Shown piece by piece: positions 46,325 to 50,031 of a stretch of DNA of 64,000 nucleotides. Positions within the stretch are counted from its first letter, which is position 1. The number at the start of each line of letters is the position of its first letter. The notes under the pieces were generated by a model that was not told the origin of the DNA, did no database searches, and saw only the letters and a list, made by a program, of their open reading frames with translations. The stretch comes from a virus. Position numbers and translations under genes: made by a program. The stretch is taken from IMG/VR virus record IMGVR_UViG_3300034418_007766, positions 26,725-90,724 of that record; one strand, 5' to 3'.

Positions 46325-46359
46325 AAAAAAAGCCCCTAACATTATTAGTGCTAGGGGCT
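46325..46359 (-). terminator. Rho-independent terminator (minus strand)
   Basis: AGCCCCTA (46331-46338) pairs with TAGGGGCT (46352-46359), 8 bp around a 13-nt loop, followed on the minus strand by seven T's. It would end transcripts coming from the 46.4-46.7 kb region before the pseudoknot and tRNAs. Confidence 0.85.
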
Positions 46360-46470
46360 GTTGAAATAACTTTTTTATAAAGTCACGTCAAGACATACCC
46401 CACTTTCGTGATGGCCAATATATTATACCTATTGTGTTAGTCTTGATCATGTAAAAAATTCCTTCATTGT

Positions 46471-46478
46471 TATTTATC
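46471..46478 (-). promoter_or_regulatory. T4-type late box GATAAATA inside the RNA locus
   Basis: GATAAATA on the minus strand; a transcript from here would run about 140 nt to the terminator at 46325. A short frame (ATGAAGGAATTT..., 6 codons) follows it. Confidence 0.4.
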
Positions 46479-46694
46479 TGTGATAGGTTGGATTAAGGAT
46501 TACCAACAACCGCCTCAACAGATCCTGTCAATCAATTCAGCGGAGCCTAGCATCGGATAGTTACTTCCAAAATACGCATCTTCATGTCTCCATGCTCATG
46601 CGCTGCCACTACAGCTACTAGCCAAGTTACTGCCTCTGTAAAGCAGCGTTTCCTTGCACTATCTAACTCGGACCGTCGTCTTTGTTATGTTTAT

Positions 46695-46723
46695 AATATA
46701 GCAAAAGAATCACCAAAGGTCAA
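46695..46723 (-). promoter_or_regulatory. Sigma70-type promoter (TTGACC-N17-TATATT)
   Basis: -35 TTGACC (46723-46718) and -10 TATATT (46700-46695), 17 bp apart on the minus strand, just after the stop of the 214-residue gene. No coding gene follows, so it most likely drives the non-coding RNA. Confidence 0.65.
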
Positions 46724-46728
46724 CCTTT

Positions 46729-47373
46729 TTATTGCCAAGAAACAAAAAAATCTTCATCTTTTTTGTAAAATTTTTCAATATATTCTTCATAGGTAATAAT
46801 TCGCGGACCCCAGTCCTGTAATGTATATCCATTGCTTTTATACATTACATTTTGATAACAACTTTCTTGTTCGTCTGGATATATTCTAACAAGGCCGGCA
46901 TCAAATGCTTGCCATTTGTCTGTGACACTCATCCAGCTACGTTTCACATTTTCCCACCAAGGTTGTTTTTCAATTTGATATCCACGCTTGCGTCTTTGCA
47001 TACTAAAAAACAATAAATCGTATTCAAATCCTAATACTTGTTCTACCAATGGAATTACATGATTAGCTAGTTGATCATGATGATACGTAATTTTTCTTGG
47101 ACTACGCCATTCAGGAAACATATAAGTTCTGTTGAGTATTCTAGCAACGTGTGGAGATAATTCAAGCAACCCGCTAAAGTGCCAAAGTTTATCGTCTAAG
47201 TATGCAATCCAAAAAAGTTTATGATCCTCAACTACACAGCGTTCTTTTGTATAATTTTCTCGTAGCCAATTATCTTCTTCTAAGCACTTTTGTCTTACTT
47301 TTTCAAATTCAACATTGTCATGATCAAATACATGTAATCTTACTCTACCTGAAGATACAATTTCATTTATCAT
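46729..47373 (-). CDS. Unknown phage protein (214 aa)
   Basis: A 214-residue protein I do not recognise. It is rich in Trp and aromatic residues (FWIAYLDDKLWHFSGLLELS, RNTYMFPEWRS-type NRTYMFPEWRSPRK, WWENVKRSW). The middle part (VLGFEYDLLFFSMQRRKRGY) might belong to a GNAT-like fold, but no acetyl-CoA motif is seen. It overlaps the desaturase by 11 nt, so it may act in the same pathway. Confidence 0.55.
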   Translation of the reverse strand: MINEIVSSGRVRLHVFDHDNVEFEKVRQKCLEEDNWLRENYTKERCVVEDHKLFWIAYLDDKLWHFSGLLELSPHVARILNRTYMFPEWRSPRKITYHHDQLANHVIPLVEQVLGFEYDLLFFSMQRRKRGYQIEKQPWWENVKRSWMSVTDKWQAFDAGLVRIYPDEQESCYQNVMYKSNGYTLQDWGPRIITYEEYIEKFYKKDEDFFVSWQ

Positions 47374-49707: not shown

Positions 49708-49782
49708 TGGTGGAGCCTAGGGGGGTCGAACCCCTGACTTCGGAATGCAAATCCGATGTTTTCCCAACTATACTAAGGCCCC
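49708..49782 (-). tRNA. tRNA-Ala (TGC)
   Basis: Acceptor GGGGCCT/AGGCTCC with the G3-U70 wobble that specifies alanine, anticodon stem TCGGA/TCCGA with loop TTTGCAT (anticodon TGC), T arm AGGGG-TTCGACC-CCCCT and ACCA encoded. The D stem pairs poorly. Confidence 0.85.
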
Positions 49783-49786
49783 TTTA

Positions 49787-49861
49787 TGGTGCTGCTGGAG
49801 AGAATCGAACTCCCAATCTACTGATTACAAGTCAGTTGCCTTACCATTCGGCCACAGCAGC
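49787..49861 (-). tRNA. tRNA-Thr (TGT)
   Basis: Acceptor GCTGCTG/CAGCAGC, anticodon stem ACTGA/TCAGT with loop CTTGTAA (anticodon TGT), T arm GGGAG-TTCGATT-CTCTC and ACCA encoded. Confidence 0.93.
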
Positions 49862-49897
49862 GTTATTCCTTTGCTCTACCAACTGAGCTAGTCCAGC
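49862..49897 (-). pseudogene. tRNA 5' half (acceptor strand and D arm only)
   Basis: Reads GCTGGAC-TA-GCTC-AGTTGGTA-GAGC followed by AAAGGAATAA and then directly the tRNA-Thr gene. It is a clean acceptor-plus-D-arm half without anticodon, variable or T arm. Confidence 0.7.
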
Positions 49898-49899
49898 TT

Positions 49900-49939
49900 T
49901 GGCGGTCGGACTGGGAATCGAACCCAGTCAACCCTTTTA
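49900..49939 (-). pseudogene. tRNA 3' half (T arm, acceptor strand and CCA only)
   Basis: Reads GGTTGA, then CTGGG-TTCGATT-CCCAG, TCCGACC and GCCA. It starts right after the tRNA-Ser (GCT) 3' end and lies upstream, in transcription order, of the 5' half at 49862. The acceptor strands of the two halves pair at only about five of seven positions, with a register shift. Confidence 0.7.
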
Positions 49940-50031
49940 TGGCGGTGACGCAGGGATTCGAACCCTGGGAACGCTTAATCACGTTCAACTCCTTAGCAGG
50001 GAGCCGCTTTCGACCACTCAGCCACATCACC
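49940..50031 (-). tRNA. tRNA-Ser (GCT)
   Basis: Acceptor GGTGATG/CGTCACC, anticodon stem CTCC/GGAG with loop CTGCTAA (anticodon GCT), long variable arm and T arm CAGGG-TTCGAAT-CCCTG ending GCCA. Its 5' five bases overlap the stop of the nuclease gene. Confidence 0.93.

Follow-up and report, generated by a model that had tools for sequence, protein, structure and literature searches.

A divergent manA-type RNA of T4-like marine phages, probably a free-standing gene

The minus strand of the window (the whole stretch of 64,000 nucleotides analysed, part of a viral contig 90,724 bases long with T4-type replication genes, e.g., a clamp loader) carried at 46690-46479 a conserved structured RNA core that is a distant relative of manA RNA (RF01745) rather than a new type of RNA. 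This folded domain, which is under selection, lay close behind a conserved promoter, and promoter, RNA and terminator were conserved as a whole while the neighbouring genes changed. On balance, the favoured reading is that the core belongs to a divergent manA clade in T4-like marine phages and is a free-standing gene, which would act in trans. A structured RNA gene of about 360 nt had been proposed in an earlier note; its own promoter and terminator were upheld, and its conserved part was reduced to about 210 nt.

Structure and covariation of the core

Three stretches of the window RNA served as exact search patterns for variant loci and gave 102 further viral contigs, all of them also found by blastn with the window core (about 76-100% identity). 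Because of this selection conservation is inflated in those stretches, and invariant pairs within them prove nothing. Alignment A1 comprised the 52 distinct cores of the variant clade. RNAalifold on A1, blind to manA, gave 50 pairs, 21 of them with compensatory changes, and its main helices were those of the mapped Rfam manA model minus the inner hairpin. With the pseudoknot added to the consensus, 99.2% of 2860 cells in A1 were paired. Changes on both sides occurred in 24 of 55 pairs (shuffles 14.3, sd 1.7; slid controls 1-4); the measure based on further pair types showed no clear excess over shuffles (reached by 100 of 500).

The 5' hairpin (46680-46671, minus strand as for all elements of the core; loop GACG; helix 1) had both-side changes in 3/3 pairs, and the hairpin with a GAGA tetraloop (46595-46583; helix 8) in 4/4 pairs. 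The closing helix (helix 2), formed by GATAG (46663-46659) and CTATC (46486-46482), was 100% paired yet nearly invariant in the variant clade. Where Rfam puts the inner hairpin, five bases (AGGAT, 46526-46522) formed pairs with ATCCT (46500-46496) in the last hairpin's loop. The strands of this pseudoknot (helix 11) changed in step across the clade (AGGAT/ATCCT, ATGAT/ATCAT, GAGA/TCTC), with both-side changes in 3/5 pairs, and in 4/5 pairs at the same place in ordinary manA (alignment A2). In the covered part of Weinberg 2010 (PMC2864571), the manA pseudoknot carried a question mark.

Folding-energy z was -3.6 with the terminator, -1.5 without it and -0.76 for the core alone; folding energy by itself is weak evidence and was rejected as proof of structure. 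Support for the structure is covariation, not stability. Protein coding was rejected on either strand: in each of the 52 distinct copies every frame was interrupted within the core, and an antisense ORF of 70 aa (46584-46796, plus strand) was kept (≥31 aa) in just 14 of them. GC content was 46% in the core, 32% in the 3' part and 37% in the whole window. The GNRA-type loop on the minus strand, the less A+T-rich core and the lack of coding potential, all described in the earlier note, were thus borne out, the loop with covariation behind it; comparison with related phages, set there as the test of the candidate, gave compensatory changes and no conserved protein. The RNA was somewhat better conserved than the capsid gene, with means of 88% and 83% and the higher value on the RNA side in 434 of 561 pairs; this difference was given no weight because the loci had been selected by RNA patterns. 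With model R1, built from the variant clade, each of 10 long records had one RNA copy.

Kinship with manA

The Rfam scan at gathering thresholds returned tRNAs only. Below the threshold, RF01745 matched 46682-46477 (minus) over model positions 1-192 with 37 bits (gathering 55.2; E 5.6e-8 with 601 bases searched). A search of the phage's own record gave E 2.0e-9, and 14 control genomes gave 0 matches. The same place was matched in 9 of 10 further variant records (25.4-46.5 bits; none in one), with E 8.5e-11 in L071. All remaining sub-threshold matches, to other Rfam families, were at E 0.06 or worse and were discarded. The sub-gathering match over the full length, with the same helices and pseudoknot, replaces the new RNA class claimed earlier with manA. 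Model R1 missed ordinary manA in S-CREM1 and ACG-2014f (L104, L105), which speaks against the family assignment. With the match under the gathering cut-off and the reciprocal R1 search negative, the RNA was filed as a divergent clade beside RF01745 and not as a plain member.

By its structure the variant RNA appears to share descent with manA and to work like it. It has in common with manA the helix order, the closing helix, a GACG-like first loop, the last hairpin GGUA...UCC, the loop-loop pseudoknot, a GNRA-capped hairpin (GAGA also in S-CREM1), a sigma70-type promoter just upstream and T4-like marine phages as carriers. It differs in scoring under gathering, in the unformed inner hairpin of the Rfam model, in the bases of the closing helix (GATAG/CTATC in the variant clade; mostly GGGAG/CTCCC, or GGATG/CATCC, in ordinary manA), and in having a terminator next instead of a gene, mostly beside a capsid gene.

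ARAGORN found no tmRNA, and Rfam gave no match at the locus for GOLLD, ROOL, RNase P RNA or 6S RNA, in agreement with the previous exclusion of tmRNA, RNase P RNA and 6S RNA. In phage records, blastn with the RNA as query gave just chance-like matches of 25-27 nt, and the exact pattern AGTAACTTGGCTAGTAGYTGTAGTG was absent from all bacterial and archaeal species genomes searched. By both R1 and RF01745 the RNA was absent from PA5oct, Vibrio phage 2.275.O and Sinorhizobium phage Phosso, the isolated phages whose capsids are nearest. Stable RNAs C and D are non-tRNA stable RNAs within the tRNA cluster of phage T4; the window RNA is likewise a non-tRNA RNA in a T4-type tRNA array, a likeness of description. 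GOLLD and ROOL, described in the covered part of PMC12286853 as phage RNAs without assigned function, often near tRNAs, resemble it in these respects and differ in being much larger and having other structures. The contrast in size with them drawn in the earlier note stood; its candidate turned out to be manA-type.

Promoter, terminator and neighbours

The promoter (46723-46695, minus) consisted of TTGACC (-35, 46723-46718), a 17-nt spacer and TATATT (-10, 46700-46695) preceded by TG, with 10/12 matches. In the window alone such a promoter was at chance level (2 sites in 601 nt vs. 1.4 in shuffles). Across the clade the offsets of both hexamers were conserved, and a promoter with at least 9/12 matches, ending 4-5 nt before the RNA start (ACATAA), was present in 45/45 distinct 45-nt upstream segments vs. 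9% of shuffles. From the promoter position, the RNA would start at about 46690.

Of 47 distinct downstream segments, each 67 nt long, 35 had a terminator-like hairpin, vs. 2% of shuffles. A terminator lay within 60 nt of the closing helix in 64 of 89 copies (the window counted three times, with L001 and L022), and within 170 nt, always ahead of any ORF, in 69 of the 83 copies with enough flank, an arrangement unlike that of a 5' leader of a gene, the position ascribed to manA. These counts are low estimates, since the scan misses some hairpins (L049 and L096 type). Between the terminator arms (20 distinct sequences) and the core ends (9 distinct), the longest alternative pairing averaged 6.45 vs. 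5.90 in shuffles and reached 8 or more in 1/20; with no surplus, an attenuator acting by alternative pairing was rejected.

In the window, unlike in the relatives, the terminator (46359-46331, minus; an 11-pair stem-loop, then TTTTTTT) lay 120 nt beyond the core, and a T4 late-promoter-like site, GATAAATA (46478-46471, minus), touched the 3' end of the core. The sigma70-type promoter and the strong terminator reported from the first inspection were both confirmed. No terminator directly followed the core in the window, which counts against the free-standing reading. The stretch from core to terminator, present only beside identical cores (L001, L022), held a 20-aa ORF (46450-46388, minus) with an SD-like AAGGA upstream, its coding unsupported. 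Five tRNA genes (Trp, Met, Pro, Gly and Ser; 46230-45806, minus) began 100 nt past the terminator. Nearness to a tRNA cluster, as claimed before, is true of the window; in the relatives the RNA was usually not close to tRNAs and in most followed a T4-type major head (capsid) protein gene (PHROG 138). In L022 (4690-5108) the RNA and tRNAs were as in the window, with an additional tRNA-Leu(tag) between tRNA-Thr and tRNA-Ala that was absent at window 49708-50031.

A gene starting MGRP lay farther downstream in most relatives. Neighbours other than capsid were found in, e.g., L004 and the window, where the neighbouring protein (46729-47373) had no useful match in phage records and none in PHROGs. 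Beyond the terminator, most copies shown had GATAAATAC, also T4 late-promoter-like; the T4 late promoter consensus is the basis for this naming. The window has 10 occurrences of [GT]ATAAATA on its minus strand and 0 on its plus strand, and several sites were by eye 20-40 nt ahead of gene starts (51230, 50418, 26691, 7887, 4368); given this strand bias and placement, T4-type late promoters are probably in use by the phage. Freshwater-2 (RF02980) was found above cut-off downstream of the RNA in 7 of 25 variant loci scanned (L069, L071, L038, L041, L061, L064, L085) and was not among the Rfam matches listed for the window. Its model ends at the SD and start codon, and the element is separate from the variant RNA; in L071 the match took in the SD as well as the start codon of the gene that follows. 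Glutamine riboswitch aptamers were seen about 140 nt upstream of the variant RNA in L041 (2508-2555) and L064 (2024-2070).

Ordinary manA and the mode of action

Ordinary manA was collected with one degenerate pattern in at least 120 contigs, or at least 122 places with S-CREM1 and ACG-2014f; at least 2 of the 122 listed were by eye chance hits (L121, L190). For alignment 106 of the 122 were kept, with flanks and the exact closing-helix complement demanded; thinning by similarity left 71 (A2), and helix 1 as numbered for A2 is accordingly paired by construction. Among the matches listed, a tRNA abutted manA in 12/122: on both sides in 3 (L104, L105, L140), upstream only in 3 and downstream only in 6. 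In some cyanophages about 1 nt separated manA from the tRNA gene on either side; in ACG-2014f tRNA-Arg ended at 2479, manA occupied 2481-2691 and tRNA-Asn began at 2693. The GenBank record of L105 (KJ019037.1) has no RNA annotation at 2406-2764, where two tRNA genes and a 90-bit manA RNA were found. Also among the matches listed, 61 of the 103 ordinary copies with enough flank were followed within 120 nt by an ORF start, with no terminator; the others had a terminator first (15), a tRNA (10) or neither (17). A promoter of at least 10/12 was upstream of 89/103 copies among the matches listed, a figure without shuffle control. In several contigs (L120, L134, L209, L220 and others) the recurrent element GACCTAAGATGCAACT...GGGCAGATGGTCT, which we take to be perhaps PhotoRC-II-like, stood right after ordinary manA; in L120 it had no Rfam match at gathering.

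First described in 2010 as a candidate riboswitch, manA is cis-regulatory according to Rfam and Weinberg 2010 (PMC2864571); in the portions covered of PMC2864571, PMC9964418, PMC10665884, PMC7779021, PMC7657543 and PMC12286853, no ligand is reported and manA is not treated as a free-standing or tRNA-array RNA. The strongest rival follows this classification: a riboswitch or other cis-acting leader would sense something and control whether transcription continues beyond the terminator to the next gene, i.e., the MGRP gene in relatives, and the tRNAs or the 20-aa ORF in the window. The 61/103 leader-like copies among the matches listed are the strongest fact for it and against the free-standing reading; they suit the published 5' leader view for the majority of ordinary copies and not for the rest. 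A terminator straight after a structured RNA is also a trait of transcription-attenuating riboswitches, and counts against the free-standing reading too. In the variant clade, however, the following gene seems to have a start of its own, since GATAAATAC and, in 7/25 loci scanned, freshwater-2 sit beyond the terminator; the terminator arms had no alternative pairing to the core, the downstream genes differed, and tRNA arrays offer no adjacent gene for regulation. A cis-acting leader is considered unlikely.

Less probable still is a 5' module of a longer transcript, either that of the tRNAs or that of a late mini-gene containing the 20-aa ORF, which the RNA would help to stabilise or process. 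The position of the window terminator 120 nt past the core, the adjoining late-promoter-like site and the SD-like AAGGA point that way; against it, the 3' part was present only beside identical cores and the tRNAs sit past the terminator. That promoter, stems and terminator arose by chance in an intergenic gap is hardly credible: the unremarkable folding energy of the core agrees with it, and it is refuted by the covariation in 52 distinct copies, with the conserved promoter and terminator also opposed to it.

The conserved promoter, the terminator, the differing neighbours and the occurrence of manA in tRNA arrays are read as a free-standing, trans-acting phage RNA. For such an RNA, host RNA polymerase with a sigma70-type factor would transcribe it early, and the transcript would take the shape of a compact junction that GATAG/CTATC closes and the pseudoknot locks. 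It would stop at the terminator and act in trans through its folded surface, its most likely partner being a protein or ribonucleoprotein of host or phage. The window transcript may either extend as far as the terminator (46331), carrying about 120 nt that are not conserved, or be trimmed back. Ordinary manA has this domain at mRNA 5' ends as well, and within tRNA arrays, from which tRNA processing would release it. A wider proposal, made tentatively and with less confidence than the reading of the window RNA, is that manA is no riboswitch; it may act in trans in T4-like phages, with a gene that takes different forms (a promoter and terminator of its own, the leading end of an early mRNA, or excision from a tRNA array by tRNA processing), perhaps modifying host RNA polymerase, the ribosome or the tRNA machinery.

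The variant RNA adds to manA a large clade that the Rfam cut-off omits. With its own promoter and terminator in this clade, and cyanophage manA wedged between tRNA genes, the question of cis or trans action is directly testable in isolated phages (S-CREM1, ACG-2014f).
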